From contig JAPPKV010000121.1 of the NCBI GenBank assembly GCA_028819775.1, positions 1-16,229 of the forward strand: a DNA stretch of 16,229 bases, read 5' to 3'. The notes under the pieces are model-generated. The model did no database searches and was not told the origin of the DNA. It saw only the letters and a list, made by a program, of their open reading frames with translations. Numbering within the stretch: the first letter of the stretch is position 1; the number at the start of each line of letters is the position of its first letter. Below, one piece after another: positions 1 through 13,462 of this stretch. This DNA comes from Gammaproteobacteria bacterium (lineage in GTDB: Bacteria > Pseudomonadota > Gammaproteobacteria > Pseudomonadales > Azotimanducaceae_A). Position numbers and translations under genes: made by a program.

Positions 1-87
1 CACACCTTCGAACTGATGTCGCTTGGCGCCGACGGCGTGGAAGGCGGTGAAGACCTTGACGCGGATATTCGTTACGCCGACCTGTAG
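1..87 (+). CDS. gspG: Type II secretion major pseudopilin GspG, C-terminal end (partial)
   Basis: The window opens inside this gene; only the last 28 codons and a TAG stop are present. The readable tail contains SLGADGVEGGEDLDADI, which matches the conserved C-terminal calcium-binding loop of GspG (SLGADG..GG...DADI), the major pseudopilin of the type II secretion pseudopilus. In the family, the Asp residues of this loop bind Ca2+ and stabilise the folded periplasmic domain. The following gene, gspH, starts inside this end, as expected for the conserved gspG-H-I-J-K-L-M order. The N-terminal prepilin part lies outside the window. The identification rests on the short tail plus the context and is strong. 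Confidence 0.9.
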   Translation, partial: HTFELMSLGADGVEGGEDLDADIRYADL

Positions 88-742
88 TGCGCCGGGTACC
101 GGGTCCACCCGGGCCCATCGTCGAGCCGCGGGATTCACGCTGCTCGAGCTTTTGCTGGTCGTCACCATCATCGGCATCCTGGCGTCGGTGGTAGTGCTCG
201 GAGCGACGGATGTCGGACGACAGCGCACCATACGCGCCGAAGCGGAGCGATTGGTGCTCGCCGTGGAACTGGCCCGCGACGAGTCGAGGCTGCGCAATGC
301 GGTGTGGGGCTTAAGGGTCGACGGCGGCACCTATCGGTTCCTGGAGTACGACGACGCCGGAGACGAGTGGCACGACGTGGCGCGCCGGGAATTTGCCTCC
401 GATGCCACGGAGGACAATGTCGAGTTCCAGGTCGGGCCTGTTCTGGAGGGTTCGGAAGACGCACTGGAACCGGCTTGGAACCCGGCGAGCAGGAGAGGCG
501 AGACGGTGCCGCGCACCACGGACGTGGTCGCGGACGACGAGGCCCCGGTTCCGGATGTGGTCATCTATCCCGGCGGCGAGATGACACCGTTCAAGATCAC
601 CGTGTCCGGCGGCGACGACTATGTGGCCTGGGTCGCCCAGTCCGATGGGATCCAACGGACGCGTGCCGTTGCTGAGAACGAAGTCGACGAGGTCGACGAC
701 GATCTCCGGGACTGGCTGCAGGACGCCGGCATCGTTCAATGA
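56..742 (+). CDS. gspH: Type II secretion minor pseudopilin GspH
   Basis: Minor pseudopilin thought to sit near the tip of the periplasmic pseudopilus, in complex with GspI, GspJ and GspK. The protein has a type IV prepilin cleavage site, AAG|FTLLELLLVV, with Phe1 and Glu5 of the mature form, then a hydrophobic helix (FTLLELLLVVTIIGILASVVVLGA) and an acidic C-terminal domain. The start is uncertain. There is no ATG, and no ATG, GTG or TTG codon lies in frame between base 59 and the cleavage site at 134. I chose TTG at 56 because GGTGA lies 5 bases upstream; GTG at 47 or TTG at 23 are alternatives. The leader would then be about 26 residues, longer than usual, and the gene overlaps gspG by about 32 bases. 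Its ATGA stop overlaps gspI. Confidence 0.9.
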   Translation: MTRIFVTPTCSAPGTGSTRAHRRAAGFTLLELLLVVTIIGILASVVVLGATDVGRQRTIRAEAERLVLAVELARDESRLRNAVWGLRVDGGTYRFLEYDDAGDEWHDVARREFASDATEDNVEFQVGPVLEGSEDALEPAWNPASRRGETVPRTTDVVADDEAPVPDVVIYPGGEMTPFKITVSGGDDYVAWVAQSDGIQRTRAVAENEVDEVDDDLRDWLQDAGIVQ

Positions 743-1146
743 CGACGGCCATGCGCCATCCCGGTCGGCGCGTGGCCGGGTTCACGCTCTTGGAGTTGCT
801 GATCGCCTTGGCGATTCTGGCCATTGTCTCCATTGCGGTTTTCAACCAGGGCGGGGACACGGCGCGTCAACTCGGTGGTCTCGAGCAGAAGACCCTTGCA
901 CGATGGGTGGCCGAGAACGAACTAGCCAAACTGCGCTTGGAACACCGCCTGGCGGGCGAGCCGCTGCGCCCGCGCAGCAAACGGGACCAGGTGTCCCATG
1001 GCGACCGTTACTGGCAAGTCGTCGAAGAAATCCAGACAACGGACCATCCATGGATGCACCGGGTGGAAATCTCCGTCTATGCCCTGGTGGATGGACGGGA
1101 GGCCGGCCCGGTCGACACGCTGGTTGGATTCGTGGGACGGTATTGA
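739..1146 (+). CDS. gspI: Type II secretion minor pseudopilin GspI
   Basis: A 135-residue minor pseudopilin, the expected small size for GspI, which nucleates the GspI-J-K tip complex of the pseudopilus. The prepilin leader MTTAMRHPGRRVAG is positively charged and ends in Gly just before FTLLELL (Phe1, Glu5), the GspO peptidase site. The hydrophobic helix FTLLELLIALAILAIVSIAVF follows, then the GspI-like stretch WVAENELAKLRLE. The ATG start overlaps the gspH TGA in an ATGA, and the TGA stop overlaps the ATG of gspJ by one base, so translational coupling is likely. A second in-frame ATG at codon 5 could also serve as the start. Confidence 0.94.
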   Translation: MTTAMRHPGRRVAGFTLLELLIALAILAIVSIAVFNQGGDTARQLGGLEQKTLARWVAENELAKLRLEHRLAGEPLRPRSKRDQVSHGDRYWQVVEEIQTTDHPWMHRVEISVYALVDGREAGPVDTLVGFVGRY

Positions 1147-1871
1147 TGAAACCCCATTGCGCGTCCGAAACCATCGCCAGGCAAGCCGCATCGGGCAAAT
1201 TTGCGAACCGTCTGGGTTTCACGCTGGTGGAGATGATGACGGCACTGGCGATATTCGGCGTGATCGGGCTCATGGCGACCCAGATACTCACCGGTACGAT
1301 CCGAGTTGGTGAGACCACGCGCGAACGGGGTGAGTCCCTTTCGGATGCGCAACGCGCCATGGACATCATCGGTCGGGACATCATGCAGTTAACCCGACGT
1401 ACCGTGCTGGACGAACTCGGCGAAGCAACGGAGCCGGTAGTCGTATCCGGCACGAGCCTCCTCGAATTGACGCGCCTGGGATGGCAGAACCCGCTTGGGA
1501 AGTCGCGTAGCGAGGTGCAGCGGGTCGCCTATGTACATCGGGACGATGCGCTGATCCGGCTGTTCTGGCCGGTGCTGGATCGCGCACCCGGGTCGGAGCC
1601 AATTGCCCAGATGCTGCTGAAGGGCGTTACCGAGGCAAGTTTCAGCGTCCAGGACGATCAGGGCGAGCGGCACGGTTTCTGGCCGTTGGTGGAGGCGGAG
1701 GACGAGACCGCCCCGGAACTCGCCGCGGTGGCCATGGCGCTGCGACTGGAACGCTACGGGCATGTCGAACGCCTTTGGCTGGTGGCCCCGGGGGCCTCCT
1801 ACATAACCGATGCCGAGGCCGGTGACGACCCGGACGCTGGCGAAGTCGAAGGCGTGCGGATCCGATCATGA
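1146..1871 (+). CDS. gspJ: Type II secretion minor pseudopilin GspJ
   Basis: A 241-residue minor pseudopilin; GspJ binds GspI and GspK at the pseudopilus tip. The leader of 24 residues ends ...FANRLG before FTLVEMMTALAIFGVIGLMATQIL, so Phe1 and Glu5 are present. The segment RAMDIIGRDIMQLTRR is typical of GspJ (family pattern: aM..i.rDl.Q...R). The open frame extends far upstream to 621, but that part lies across gspI in another frame and is ignored; the ATG at 1146 overlaps the gspI stop (TGATG). The stop overlaps gspK in an ATGA. The leader is fairly long for this family, but the ATG choice is clear from the overlap. Confidence 0.94.
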   Translation: MKPHCASETIARQAASGKFANRLGFTLVEMMTALAIFGVIGLMATQILTGTIRVGETTRERGESLSDAQRAMDIIGRDIMQLTRRTVLDELGEATEPVVVSGTSLLELTRLGWQNPLGKSRSEVQRVAYVHRDDALIRLFWPVLDRAPGSEPIAQMLLKGVTEASFSVQDDQGERHGFWPLVEAEDETAPELAAVAMALRLERYGHVERLWLVAPGASYITDAEAGDDPDAGEVEGVRIRS

Positions 1872-2848
1872 TTTCCGACCGTCGACATCGTCCGGCCCCA
1901 CGGGGGCTAGCGCTTGTCACCGTCCTGCTCATCGTTGCCGTGACTACCGCGCTGGCCTACGAAATTGCCAACCGGCACGCATTCGGCGTGGCGGTGAGTC
2001 GTCAAGTTTTCTCGGGTTCCCAGGCACGGGAATTTGCCCTGGGAGGCGAACAGTACGCGCGGCAACTGCTCTATGCCGATTGGGAAGACGAAGGCACGCG
2101 TAGCAAGGACACCCTGCTGGAGGACTGGTCGTCGATGCCGGAAGCGTTCGAGGTCGAAGACGGCGGCATCGAGATGCGCATCGTGGATCTGTCCTCTCGG
2201 TTCAATCTGAACAGCCTGCTGGGTGCCGAGGGTCCCCAAAATGCGGCGCGACTCAATCGCTTGTTCACGGATCTGGAGTTGGATCCGAAGTACGTGGACG
2301 CCTGGGTCGATTGGATCGATCCGGACCAGGAGGTGCAACCCTACGGTGCCGAGGACGCCGACTACCTTCTCCGGGAACCGCCTCACCGAGCGGCGAACCA
2401 GCGCGCGGTCGACATTTCCGAACTCCGCCTTGCCGTGCCGTTCGAATCCCGGGACGAATATGCTCGGCTAGCACCCCATGTCACGGTTCTGCCGACCGAT
2501 CAGCTCACCGTAAACATCAACACGGTCACCGAAGCGGTCCTTGCCAGCCTGGCCCCGAACTTCCCAGCCGCGGACGCGCAACTCCTGGTGGAGCAGGTGC
2601 GCGACTACGACGATGTGGAAGGCGTCATCGCCCGCTATGCACCGCTTGGCGAAAGCGCCGCGGCACTCCGGGTTGGCAGCCAGTTCTTCGAGGTGCAGGT
2701 GAGGGCGCATGTTGGCGAAACCCGTTCGGAACTCACCTCGGTACTGCACCGAAACCAGGAGAGCGGGGAGCTCACCCTGTTGTCGCGGAACTTCGGCCGC
2801 CGAGTCGAACCCCGGGACGACGGGGACACAGATGCCACGGAAGCCTAA
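1868..2848 (+). CDS. gspK: Type II secretion minor pseudopilin GspK
   Basis: A 326-residue protein, the length expected for GspK, the large pseudopilin that caps the pseudopilus. The leader MISDRRHRPAPRG precedes LALVTVLLIVAVTTALAYEIANR. The mature position 5 is Thr rather than Glu, which is characteristic of GspK and supports this identity over another pseudopilin. The stretch IRIVDLSSRFNLNSLLG (here MRIVDLSSRFNLNSL) is the family's 'D..grfNlN.L' region near residue 110. An alpha-helical insert with VDWIDPDQE and PYGAEDADYL (about residues 148-170) matches the conserved DWiD.D.....GaED.yY block. Start overlaps gspJ by 4 bases; gspL follows after 3 bases. Confidence 0.95.
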   Translation: MISDRRHRPAPRGLALVTVLLIVAVTTALAYEIANRHAFGVAVSRQVFSGSQAREFALGGEQYARQLLYADWEDEGTRSKDTLLEDWSSMPEAFEVEDGGIEMRIVDLSSRFNLNSLLGAEGPQNAARLNRLFTDLELDPKYVDAWVDWIDPDQEVQPYGAEDADYLLREPPHRAANQRAVDISELRLAVPFESRDEYARLAPHVTVLPTDQLTVNINTVTEAVLASLAPNFPAADAQLLVEQVRDYDDVEGVIARYAPLGESAAALRVGSQFFEVQVRAHVGETRSELTSVLHRNQESGELTLLSRNFGRRVEPRDDGDTDATEA

Positions 2849-2851
2849 CCG

Positions 2852-4099
2852 ATGAAGCGTTTGTTCGTACGGATAAAGGCACCGGTGGTGCGTACGGAGG
2901 AGGGCATCGACGCGATCGTCGACTACCTCGTCCATGACGAGCACGGGGTCACCGAAGCCGTCGGGCAGACCAACGCCGCCGGGCTTGCCGAATTCGTCGA
3001 AATGAATGCGTCGTGGGCGGTGGATCCCGCACGGGTCGTCGTTTTCGTGTCCGCGAGCGACGTTCTGTCCGCGAGTTGCGAGGTCCCGGGCCGCAGCGTT
3101 GCCCAGATGCGGCGGGCGGTGCCCTATGCCATCGAAGAATTCGTGGCCGACGACATCGATACGATGCAGGTGGCCTGTGCGGACCTGGTGCGCAACGAGC
3201 CCGTGCATTGCCTGGTCGCCCCGCGGCGCAGCGTCGAGGAGTGGTTGGCCTTCCTTGCGGAGGCCGGAATCCAGCCTGGATTCCTGACGGCGGATGCAAT
3301 GGCGCTTAGGAACGACGGCAATGTCGTCGACGTGCTCTTCGAGGACGATCATGCGCTAGTCCGTGCTGCGGAGCAGATGGCATGTGTGGATCTTCCCAAC
3401 CTTGCCGAAGTCGTCGCAGGCATCACGGTGGGGACGGACCCTGATCGGCCGGCGGCGCTTCGTTTGATCAACGGGACGGCAGCGGGCCTCCGGGGATTGG
3501 ATCTCGACGGGTTCGAGGTCGAGGAGGCGCTGGTCGACATATCCGTGCTCGGCTTTCTTGCCGGTGAATTCGACGGGCAGGCGGTCAACCTGCTGCAAGG
3601 CGACTACGCGGTGAGGCGGCGTCCCACGGGTGCCTGGTCGCGTTGGCGTCCGGTGGCTGCCCTCGCCGGTACATGGTTCGTTGTCGGCCTGGCCGTGTTG
3701 GCGGCCCAAGGGTTCTGGGCCGACTACCAGGCATCGCGATTCCAGGAGCAAGCCGTAGAGCTCTACCGAACGCTCTACGGTGTCGACCGCGTTGCGGGCA
3801 ACCCCGCCGCGCGAATGAGGCGGTTGTTGGGCCAGACCACCGGGACCGACGACAGCTTTTACCGCCTCACTGGGCAGTTCGGGGAGGGGCTGTCCGAAAT
3901 CTCGGACCAATACGAGCTTCGCGGGGTGACCTATTCGACGCGCCGGGGGCTCGATGCGGACCTCGTCGTCGCCGATGACGCCGTATTGGAGCGCCTTGGT
4001 GCGTCGTTGCGGCGCGTGGGACTGGACATGGAAGTCATTTCGACCGATTCCGCGCAATCCGGGGGACGGATCGGTGCGCGACTGCGCGTCTCCGGCTGA
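2852..4099 (+). CDS. gspL: Type II secretion inner-membrane platform protein GspL
   Basis: A 415-residue bitopic inner-membrane protein. In the family the actin-like cytoplasmic domain recruits the GspE ATPase and the periplasmic ferredoxin-like domain dimerises with GspM. Visible here are the GspL pattern RRAVPYAIEEFVADDID (about residues 87-103, the 'a.pfalEe.la.d.d' region), NLLQGDYAVRR (246-256) just before the membrane, one transmembrane segment (about 266-288, VAALAGTWFVVGLAVLAAQ) and a periplasmic tail of about 125 residues. Start ATG is 3 bases after the gspK stop; the TGA shares one base with the gspM ATG. The order K-L-M and the topology make the call firm. Confidence 0.93.
   Translation: MKRLFVRIKAPVVRTEEGIDAIVDYLVHDEHGVTEAVGQTNAAGLAEFVEMNASWAVDPARVVVFVSASDVLSASCEVPGRSVAQMRRAVPYAIEEFVADDIDTMQVACADLVRNEPVHCLVAPRRSVEEWLAFLAEAGIQPGFLTADAMALRNDGNVVDVLFEDDHALVRAAEQMACVDLPNLAEVVAGITVGTDPDRPAALRLINGTAAGLRGLDLDGFEVEEALVDISVLGFLAGEFDGQAVNLLQGDYAVRRRPTGAWSRWRPVAALAGTWFVVGLAVLAAQGFWADYQASRFQEQAVELYRTLYGVDRVAGNPAARMRRLLGQTTGTDDSFYRLTGQFGEGLSEISDQYELRGVTYSTRRGLDADLVVADDAVLERLGASLRRVGLDMEVISTDSAQSGGRIGARLRVSG
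3881..3888 (+). promoter_or_regulatory. KOPS-like FtsK-orienting octamer (left of dif)
   Basis: GGGGAGGG on the + strand fits the enterobacterial KOPS consensus GGGNAGGG and points toward dif. It lies inside gspL. KOPS sites load the FtsK translocase and steer it to dif. A single short GC-rich match could be chance; it is listed because its polarity agrees with that of the next sites. Confidence 0.4.
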
Positions 4100-4596
4100 T
4101 GGCCATGTTTGCACTCGAGTCCATTGGCAATGTTTGGGTCCGGTCCGGTCTAAGGCGGCGGTACGAGACCCTTGCCGCCCGCGAACGCCTGCTGGTTCGA
4201 CTATGTCTCGGATTGGTGGCTGCGTTGGCGCTCTATGCAGGCATCGACTCCTTGCTCGACTTCCGCCGTGATGCCGTCACGCGCTACCTGAACGAGCAAC
4301 GCGATCTCGAATGGATGAAGCGGAACCAGCATCGAGTTGCCCGCGGCGACAGCGGCGGCGGGACGGGCGAGTTGCTGTCCACGGTCGTCAACAGCACGGC
4401 GGCTCAGTTCGGTTTCCGGCCGCGACGTACACAAACCGAAACGGAGGGGGTGAGTGCGCGGATCGAAGCCGAACAGTTCGATCGGGTGTTGCGCTGGGCG
4501 CACGCGCTGGAGACGCGTCACGGTGTCGAGATCACCCGAGCGGACATCGATCTCAACGACCCGGGGAGGGTCGATGCCCGGTTCAGCCTGCGCTGA
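4099..4596 (+). CDS. gspM: Type II secretion inner-membrane protein GspM
   Basis: A 165-residue protein with a short cytoplasmic N-terminus, one transmembrane helix (about residues 31-49, LLVRLCLGLVAALALYAGI) and a periplasmic domain, as expected for GspM, which pairs with GspL in the inner-membrane platform. The region preceding the membrane (YETLAARERLLVRL) matches the GspM pattern 'w..l..RER.ll..'. It is the last gene of the operon here: no gspN or gspO follows, and the gene ends only 33 bases before the dif site. The periplasmic part diverges widely in this family, so the name rests on size, topology and position after gspL. Confidence 0.9.
   Translation: MAMFALESIGNVWVRSGLRRRYETLAARERLLVRLCLGLVAALALYAGIDSLLDFRRDAVTRYLNEQRDLEWMKRNQHRVARGDSGGGTGELLSTVVNSTAAQFGFRPRRTQTETEGVSARIEAEQFDRVLRWAHALETRHGVEITRADIDLNDPGRVDARFSLR
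4563..4570 (+). promoter_or_regulatory. KOPS-like FtsK-orienting octamer, 60 bases left of dif
   Basis: GGGGAGGG near the end of gspM fits GGGNAGGG on the + strand and points rightward to dif at 4630. It is the match closest to dif. Whether this species uses the Escherichia coli KOPS sequence is an assumption. Confidence 0.45.
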
Positions 4597-4629
4597 TCTC
4601 TACACGTGCCAGACGCCGCGTTGGTCGTA

Positions 4630-4657
4630 ATTTAACATAATATACATTATGCGAAGT
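4630..4657 (-). other. dif: Chromosome dimer resolution site dif (XerC/XerD site)
   Basis: Read on the minus strand the 28 bases are ACTTCGCATAA, then TGTATA, then TTATGTTAAAT: an 11-base XerC arm, a 6-base central region and an 11-base XerD arm. From memory, the E. coli dif has arms GGTGCGCATAA and TTATGTTAAAT with the same TGTATA centre, so 25 of 28 positions agree and all differences lie in the outer XerC arm; the Pseudomonas-type dif (outer bases GATTCGC) is closer still. XerC and XerD, activated by FtsK, recombine here to resolve chromosome dimers during division. The site is intergenic and AT-rich in a GC-rich background. Strand composition changes sign across it, as expected at the terminus. 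Confidence 0.93.
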
Positions 4658-4736
4658 TATGGGCGAGCGTGGGGCCGGTCTAAAACGGGCCCGTTGGGGC
4701 GCGCGGCCGTCCGAGGTAACGGCTCCGGACCAAGGC

Positions 4737-4757
4737 GGGACGGGACAAGCCCGTCCC
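4737..4757. terminator. Perfect 8-base hairpin between dif and the acyl-CoA dehydrogenase stop
   Basis: GGGACGGG and CCCGTCCC form a perfect 8-base stem with a 5-base loop (ACAAG). It abuts the stop codon of the minus-strand acyl-CoA dehydrogenase, so it may protect or end that transcript. There is no T-tract on either side, so it is not a textbook intrinsic terminator; a REP-like dispersed palindrome is an alternative. Confidence 0.5.
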
Positions 4758-6362
4758 CTACGCGAGTAACGCTTTGCCGATGACCTTGAGAGCCAAGGTC
4801 TCTTCGGTACCCTCGAAGATCGATAGGACGCGAGCATCCACAAAATAACGGCTTACGTCGGTTTCCTCGGCGTAGCCTAAGCCGCCGTGGATCTGCATCG
4901 CCTCGCGCGTGATCCACTCCGCAGCCTTGCAGGCAACGAGTTTCACGAGACTCGCTTCAAGCTGGCCGCCGCCGGCATCCATGGTTCTTGCAACGGCATA
5001 CGAGAATTGCTGGCACGCCGCGATCGTGGCCGCCATGCGGGCAAGTTTCTGCAGCGTCAGCGGGTAGCCGGCGACGGATCGATCGAAAACCTGGCGCTGC
5101 TCGGCGTATTCGAGTGCCCGCCCGAACGCCGCTCGCATCAGTCCGCATGCTCGGGCGGCGGTCTGCAGACGGCCGCCTGCGAATCCGCTCATGGTGTAGT
5201 AGAAGCCCCGGCCTTCCCCGCCGGCCTCGCCGACCAAGGCGTCCTCTGGGACGACGAAACCGTCGAAAAAGAGTTCGAACGAGTGCATTCCCCGATAGCC
5301 GATGGTCGGAATCGCCCGGCCGGTCAGGCGACCGCCCATCGGGCTGTCCACCGTGAACGCCTGGTTGTCCGTGCCTCGCTTTTCGACGACAAAGAGGGAC
5401 AGCCCCCGATGCGGCGGCACGGCATTCGGATCCGTTCGCGCCAACACCAGGAGCGCGCCGGCCTTGCCCGCGAACGTGCACCAGGTCTTGCCCCCGTTCA
5501 GGGCCCAGCCGGACGTTCCATCTTCGGCGCGAGTGGCCCGCAGCGTAACGGATGCCACGTCCGAACCCGTACCGGGCTCCGTGACCGAAATGGCGACCAG
5601 GGGCTCGCCGGCGGCGATCCCCGGCAACCAACGCGCCTTCTGGGCCTCCGTTCCGCCTTCGAGTACGGCCCGGGCCATGATTTCCGGCCGCGTAATCAGA
5701 CTGCCCGCGGCCCCCAGCGAGCCGCGCGAGAGTTCCTCTGTTACGACCACCATGCCTAGGCTGTCCTCGTGGTCGTCCGGCTTCAAACCCCCGTAGCGGG
5801 CGGGCACGGACAAGCCGAAGCAGCCGAGTTCCCGCAAGCCGTCGATGATGGCGTCCGGAATCATGCGGTCGCCGCGGTGGATGTCCTGGGCCAAGGGGAC
5901 GACCTGCTCCTCTGTAAACTGACGAAACGTATCCCGGATTAGCGACTTTTCTTCACCGAGGTGGTCGTCGGGCGCCCTACCCTGGCGCTGCCGGATCGTT
6001 TCCCCAAGCAGCGCGATAGTCGATGGCGTCAGGTATTCGTCGATGAACCGTTGCGATTCGCCGTCGAACTGCGCCCGGCGTAGCCCGAACGCGGAGGGCC
6101 TGGCCTGCAATCGGCCCAGCACCCGGGCGAGCGCATCGGCGCAGAACATATTGGCCAAGGACCGCTTGTAGGACGCCTCGCCGGACGGCGAGGGATGGTC
6201 GGCATATTCGAGCATCGCATCGGCGGCATGAAGCTCGGCGGTCGAAACCGACAGGTCGTAGACCTCCATCTGCACCGCGTCGATGTCGCGCCCGACGAGA
6301 TGCGCCACACCCCGTTCGATCAACGCCGAGGTCCTATCGATGGCCTGTCGCGCCCTTCTCAT
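4758..6362 (-). CDS. Acyl-CoA dehydrogenase with N-terminal extension, (2S)-methylsuccinyl-CoA dehydrogenase-like
   Basis: An FAD-dependent acyl-CoA dehydrogenase of 534 residues, about 150 longer than the usual 380-400. Residues 1 to about 135 are a helical extension; the dehydrogenase fold follows. Family signatures: VTEPGTGSDVAS (260-271), GGKTWCTFAG (290-299), AEQRQVFDRSVAGYPLTLQKLA (420-441), IHGGLGYAEE (491-500) and IFEGTEE (515-521), where Glu517 aligns with the catalytic base of the medium-chain type. The size, the extension and the stretch GGTEAQKARWLPGIAAGE resemble (2S)-methylsuccinyl-CoA dehydrogenase of the ethylmalonyl-CoA pathway; this substrate call is inference. I chose ATG at 6362 because GAGG lies just upstream; a TTG at 6377 is the longer alternative. 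It is divergent from the SMP-30/CoA-transferase pair. Confidence 0.85.
   Translation of the reverse strand: MRRARQAIDRTSALIERGVAHLVGRDIDAVQMEVYDLSVSTAELHAADAMLEYADHPSPSGEASYKRSLANMFCADALARVLGRLQARPSAFGLRRAQFDGESQRFIDEYLTPSTIALLGETIRQRQGRAPDDHLGEEKSLIRDTFRQFTEEQVVPLAQDIHRGDRMIPDAIIDGLRELGCFGLSVPARYGGLKPDDHEDSLGMVVVTEELSRGSLGAAGSLITRPEIMARAVLEGGTEAQKARWLPGIAAGEPLVAISVTEPGTGSDVASVTLRATRAEDGTSGWALNGGKTWCTFAGKAGALLVLARTDPNAVPPHRGLSLFVVEKRGTDNQAFTVDSPMGGRLTGRAIPTIGYRGMHSFELFFDGFVVPEDALVGEAGGEGRGFYYTMSGFAGGRLQTAARACGLMRAAFGRALEYAEQRQVFDRSVAGYPLTLQKLARMAATIAACQQFSYAVARTMDAGGGQLEASLVKLVACKAAEWITREAMQIHGGLGYAEETDVSRYFVDARVLSIFEGTEETLALKVIGKALLA
5975..5982 (-). promoter_or_regulatory. KOPS-like FtsK-orienting octamer (right of dif)
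   Basis: CCCTACCC on the + strand is GGGTAGGG on the minus strand, fitting GGGNAGGG and pointing leftward to dif, the polarity expected on this side of the terminus. It lies within the acyl-CoA dehydrogenase gene, so coding constraint alone could explain it. Confidence 0.4.
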
Positions 6363-6388
6363 ACGGCCTCGAACCAACGCACCGTGAG

Positions 6389-12841: not shown

Positions 12842-13462
12842 ATGTCGAAGGGCAGCATCATCCTACTGAACGGAACGTCCAGTGCCGGCAAGACCACACT
12901 CGCCCGGGCCATTCAGGACGTCAGCCCGACCCCGTTGCAGCACATCTCCCTGGATCAGTTCCGCGATGGCATGGCGGGCCGCTACCGAGGCATGAACTCG
13001 CACGACAACGAGCCCGGTAGCCGTGGTCTGAACATCGTGCCGGTGGACGGCATGACCCAACTGCGCTTTGGCGACGTGGGCCTGCTGACACTGCGTGGCA
13101 TGCGCCGTGCGGCCTCGGCGTTTGCGGCGACCGGTATCGATGTGGTGGTCGACGACCTGCTACTCGAACCCGACTTTCTCCGCGACTACCTCGAGGTTTT
13201 CGTGGGTTTCGAGGTTACCTTCGTGGGCGTGCATTGCGACTTGGATACGCTCATGGCCCGCGAGCGCGAACGGCCCGGACGATTCCCCGGCACCGCCGCG
13301 GCGCATTTCAAGCAGGTGCACGAGGGATGCGAATACGATGTGGAAGTGGACACCGTGAGCACGACGCCCCGGGAGTGTGCTAAGCGGGTCTTGGCCGCAT
13401 CCCGCGACCTGCGATCGCCCTCCGCGTTCGAGCGCTTGCGCGTCGGCGAGCACAGTGTCTGA
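12842..13462 (+). CDS. Chloramphenicol phosphotransferase-like P-loop kinase
   Basis: A 206-residue P-loop NTPase resembling the chloramphenicol phosphotransferase family. Walker A is GTSSAGKT (11-18), in the characteristic setting GSIILLNGTSSAGKTTLARAIQ. HISLDQFRD (34-42) follows, with Asp38 in the place of the catalytic Asp of the Streptomyces enzyme, and VVVDDLL lies in the middle (about residue 100). Most proteobacterial members are of unknown substrate, so drug modification should not be assumed. The frame is open upstream to 12512, but that part lies across the kinase gene in another frame. ATG 12842 is chosen because the motif starts a few residues later and a -10 lies in front. Its TGA overlaps the GTG start of the sirtuin by 8 bases. 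Confidence 0.82.
   Translation: MSKGSIILLNGTSSAGKTTLARAIQDVSPTPLQHISLDQFRDGMAGRYRGMNSHDNEPGSRGLNIVPVDGMTQLRFGDVGLLTLRGMRRAASAFAATGIDVVVDDLLLEPDFLRDYLEVFVGFEVTFVGVHCDLDTLMARERERPGRFPGTAAAHFKQVHEGCEYDVEVDTVSTTPRECAKRVLAASRDLRSPSAFERLRVGEHSV

Follow-up and report, generated by a model that had tools for sequence, protein, structure and literature searches.

The question raised by this locus is whether a short, GC-poor sequence lying between two convergent genes is the dif site of a bacterial chromosome, and what its position would then say about the genes around it. XerC and XerD bind the two arms of dif, while FtsK joins the two dif copies of a chromosome dimer and activates XerD, and a single crossover then gives monomers. 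The DNA analysed here, referred to as the window, is a stretch of 16,229 nucleotides. At 4630-4657 it carries, on the minus strand, the 28-base sequence ACTTCGCATAATGTATATTATGTTAAAT, a putative chromosome dimer resolution site.

This sequence is almost certainly the genuine dif of the chromosome of an uncultured gammaproteobacterium, at which XerC and XerD would bind and recombine. It is an ordinary gammaproteobacterial dif, that is, a standard genome feature of a known kind. The site puts the window at the chromosome terminus and leaves the knowledge of Xer recombination unchanged. The initial annotation had already read it as a chromosomal dif, and this reading is supported by the match to known sites, by the peak of the cumulative skew in the window and by the corresponding loci of related genomes.

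Sequence and layout of the site

The dif sites of Escherichia coli K-12 and Pseudomonas aeruginosa PAO1 are printed as GGTGCGCATAATGTATATTATGTTAAAT and GATTCGCATAATGTATATTATGTTAAAT, respectively, in a table of PMC2731167. The window sequence is identical to the former at 25 of 28 positions and to the latter at 26 of 28. Compared with E. coli, the XerC arm differs at positions 1, 2 and 4, and both the XerD arm and the central hexamer are the same. Compared with P. aeruginosa, the outer XerC arm differs at positions 1 and 2, which are AC in the window and GA in PAO1. The P. aeruginosa site is likewise intergenic, with a GC content of 0.214 compared with 21% in the window. According to PMC2731167, the outer XerC arm is where variation of dif is reported, and all the mismatches of the window site fall in that region. 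On rechecking against the E. coli site, the coordinates, strand, arms and count of 25 identities given in the initial annotation proved correct, as did its placing of every difference in the outer XerC arm.

The features of dif listed in PMC2731167 include an intergenic position, low GC content and a palindromic sequence. The window site lies between stop codons at 4596 and 4758, its 21% GC stands in a window of 64% GC, and it forms an inverted repeat with 79% identity over 14-base arms (4628-4641 and 4646-4659). It also has the 28-bp layout of dif, with two 11-bp arms, a 6-bp centre and a highly conserved XerD arm (Table 1). The match had been described as far beyond chance, and simulation agrees: in 200 windows generated with a first-order Markov model the top score against the E. 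coli site was 19/28. Setting aside the site and its own palindrome, the next-best place in the window reached 16/28.

Table 1. Coordinates of the dif site, its parts and the two flanking genes in the window.
Feature	Position	Strand	Basis
gspM, last gene of gspHIJKLM (23-4596)	4099..4596	+	PF04612, E 2.6e-19
dif site, 28 bp	4630..4657	-	Matches to E. coli and P. aeruginosa dif; identical 28-mer in relatives
Predicted XerD-binding arm TTATGTTAAAT	4630..4640	-	Constant in 25/25 loci of relatives with the site
Central hexamer TGTATA	4641..4646	-	Identical to the E. coli hexamer
Predicted XerC-binding arm ACTTCGCATAA	4647..4657	-	Layout of dif as in PMC2731167
Acyl-CoA dehydrogenase (ACAD) gene, convergent with gspM	4758..6377	-	PF02771, PF02770, PF00441

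Gene surroundings and direction of replication

The site occupies a gap of 161 bases between the stop codon of gspM, 33 bases before dif, and that of the convergent ACAD gene, 100 bases beyond it. According to Pfam, the genes to the left are gspH, gspI, gspJ, gspK, gspL and gspM, all on the plus strand. To the right, the same search places first the ACAD gene (minus strand), a SMP-30/gluconolactonase-like gene, a class III CoA-transferase gene and an ExbD-like gene, followed by a beta-eliminating lyase, a nucleoside transporter (minus strand) and a PfkB kinase, and lastly a chloramphenicol-phosphotransferase (CPT)-like kinase, a Sir2 protein and a CoxE-like VWA protein (minus strand). On our reading the beta-eliminating lyase is of the threonine-aldolase type. 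A search of the 16-kb window gave no Rfam family at the gathering score and no tRNA.

The position of dif sets the direction of replication of every gene in the window: those transcribed with the fork are on the plus strand to the left of 4630 and on the minus strand to the right of 4657.

Among the genes on the right, the CPT-like kinase (12842-13462; PF07931, E 9.7e-43) stands between the PfkB kinase and the Sir2 protein, and its family name gives nothing sure on the substrate.

GC skew and KOPS in the window

Within the window, cumulative GC skew reaches its maximum at 4744, some 100 bases from dif, so that the comparison with the skew switch proposed in the initial annotation came out in favour of the site. 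GC skew is +0.074 to the left of dif and -0.026 to the right. When blocks of 500 bases were shuffled, the difference at the dif split was equalled in 0 of 20000 shuffles, and the best split anywhere was as large in 0.8% of them.

The skew at third codon positions, taken on the coding strand, was -0.009 for plus-strand genes on the left, -0.199 for plus-strand genes on the right and -0.091 for minus-strand genes on the right (the starts of gspJ and of the CPT-like and Sir2 genes were trimmed by hand for this count). Since plus-strand genes differ between the two sides, gene direction alone fails to explain the switch, and the three values show that genes read with the fork are richer in third-position G than those read against it. 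KOPS motifs in the window, two plus and none minus on the left, one plus and two minus on the right, have the expected sense and are too few to weigh.

The dif locus in related genomes

Loci of relatives were collected by scanning genome contigs with the ACAD protein, and the best 80 of 102 were taken. A site scoring at least 22/28 against the window's dif is present in 25 of these 80 loci, and a control sequence read backwards scored 19 at most in the same set. Where at least 9 kb of sequence follows the ACAD gene, 21 of 46 loci (again among the best 80 of 102) have the site. Its orientation relative to ACAD is as in the window in 22 of the 25 and opposite in three (L045, L054 and L064), and dif lies between 38 and 9827 bases from the end of the ACAD match. 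The XerD arm is constant in 25/25, in a set chosen by its score of at least 22/28. In the XerC arm the outer positions 1, 2 and 4 vary and positions 9-11 are constant in all 25; in the central hexamer, positions 13, 14 and 15 vary. The identical 28-mer is found at the same place in L001, L003, L005, L006 and L049. In the first of these (genome G001, the metagenome-assembled genome Gammaproteobacteria bacterium RHO3_bin_63), which is the closest relative, gspM lies on one side of the single dif copy and the ACAD gene on the other. The ACAD proteins of the two organisms are 96% identical, and this relative is therefore probably another species or strain, judging from protein identity.

The small addition made by this locus concerns gene order. 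Gsp genes, dif and ACAD follow one another in 18 of the 25 dif-bearing loci of relatives (from the best 80 of 102), as told from recognisable Gsp genes beyond the site, with GspM in 15. The other seven (L015, L023, L031, L045, L054, L060 and L064), some of which lack sequence, have no recognisable Gsp genes. The order is also found on single contigs of 4.3-5.1 Mb (L009 and L019), and in G012 gspM still adjoins dif with the ACAD gene about 28 kb away. Across relatives that keep the gsp-dif arrangement, GspL identity falls to 26-35%. This order can serve as a landmark when dif is sought in draft genomes of relatives.

In a sample from the whole order that covered about 1.5 kb to either side of dif, GspL was recognisable in two of 29 neighbourhoods, one of them with GspM too, and the ACAD gene in 0 of 29; such a check would miss a GspL that has diverged strongly, and any gene further out than 1.5 kb. 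With gsp linkage in only two of these neighbourhoods, the arrangement is bound to a lineage and not general. A limited look at titles and the beginnings of abstracts gave no printed report of gsp genes beside dif, which is weak evidence that none exists. It is improbable that the dif neighbourhood is itself under constraint in this lineage, with gsp and ACAD units that converge on dif, co-directional with the forks, being retained over long divergence. In such a case, transcription towards dif from both sides, or close spacing, would perhaps aid dimer resolution or shield the site from insertions.

Skew follows the orientation of the site in relatives as well. The XerC side has the higher skew in 20/20 loci that extend for at least 4 kb to either side of dif, five of the 25 having been dropped as too short, and the window agrees; in L011 the difference is barely there.

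One homologue of the window's GspL, P0060, is a chain of 577 residues in which GspL and GspM domains occur together (PF05134, PF12693 and PF04612). It is possibly a natural GspL-GspM fusion or else a frame error.

Copy number and position on the chromosome

When the inner 24 bases were searched with a tolerance of 3 mismatches, one dif was counted in 16 of 18 relatives, G001 among them, two in G015 and none in G018. In a survey of the order that tolerated no more than 2 mismatches, a match was present in 91 of the 145 genomes, one site in each, and absent from 54; a control with the reversed pattern gave no match in the 145 genomes.

The two sites of G015 (G015:C18:12446-12469 and G015:C6:1072762-1072785) are weaker dif-like sequences, with 2 mismatches in the inner 24 bases of one and 3 in those of the other. 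They could reflect a second replicon, an element or contamination.

In three relatives assembled as single contigs, the distance from dnaA to dif is 0.464 (G009), 0.494 (G012) and 0.496 (G013) of the genome, which puts dnaA nearly opposite dif in all three; in G001 a DnaA match over the cut-off was not found. In the 400 kb around dif of G009 the cumulative skew reaches its maximum 1328 bases (about 1.3 kb) from the site, and KOPS-like GGGNAGGG octamers change polarity across it, with 18 forward and 6 reverse before dif and 7 and 33 after (Fisher p 1e-5). Whole chromosomes of the same three relatives were covered coarsely, by 20 samples of 20 kb each. In G013 the skew switch falls next to dif and KOPS counts are 22/3 versus 5/19. 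The coarse skew of G009 and G012 is noisy, with the cumulative maximum elsewhere than dif; the mean skew of their two replichores differs in the expected sense, and the polarity of KOPS in these samples is not significant (p 0.15 and 0.31, respectively).

Alternative origins of the site

A dif-like sequence may also belong to a plasmid or chromid (a site of the pdif or cer type), and such matches do exist, the E. coli records holding 195 plasmid places versus 5371 on chromosomes. For the window this origin is very unlikely. The flanking genes are of chromosomal type (type II secretion, fatty acid and amino acid metabolism), the skew switches at the site, and two relatives carry the same order on the megabase-sized contigs described above. 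In addition, a 121-base query had 0 matches in 72,556 plasmid records at E 1e-5, a search in which the bare 28-mer is below reach. The main grounds for rejecting a plasmid origin are the gene content and the skew.

There is even less reason to regard the sequence as an attachment site that borders a mobile element integrated at dif (IMEX) and has a second dif-like copy as its partner. PMC2731167 describes dif as a target of filamentous phages and genomic islands, and the inner 27 bases of the window site occur exactly in 32 stretches of viral contigs (L194-L225), which, from their sequence, would fit phages that integrate at dif. However, the 16 kb window has no second dif-like site (16/28 at best), both flanking genes are those found beside dif in relatives, and none of the 17 window ORFs searched with Pfam was recognised as a phage-type gene.

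An AT-rich palindrome that arose by chance, such as a terminator serving the convergent genes, would agree with a palindromic site in this gap but has a negligible probability, as simulated windows stay at or below 19/28, a terminator-like site was not found at 4500-4900, and the XerD arm is constant in all 25 loci with the site over very different distances from ACAD.

Proposed mechanism and Xer proteins

Taking the site as the chromosomal dif, its action would follow the established mechanism of Xer dimer resolution (PMC2731167; PMC5357621; PMC2680272). Recombination between sister chromosomes would produce a dimer, whose two dif copies would be brought together at the division septum, FtsK being led to them by the polar KOPS octamers. 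XerC would be placed on the ACTTCGCATAA arm and XerD on the TTATGTTAAAT arm, the gamma domain of FtsK would activate XerD, and a single crossover across the six-base centre would yield two monomers. It is argued in PMC3025954 that termination does not occur strictly at dif. The site marks the skew switch and the place of dimer resolution, not necessarily the exact point at which the forks meet.

Binding of XerC and XerD, recombination at the window's dif and a host that encodes these proteins and FtsK are what we infer from the site and from related genomes. In the seven relatives searched, XerD and FtsK_gamma were over the cut-off in 7/7 each, and XerC in 5/7, the other two being about 2 bits under.

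Other tyrosine recombinases were observed in two of the relatives. In G013:C1 they form trios at about 612.8-615.6 kb, 3871-3874 kb and 4230-4237 kb, as repeated copies and inverted pairs, and in G006:C31 three of them are neighbours at about 0.5-3.3 kb. These groups resemble elements with recombinases in trio.
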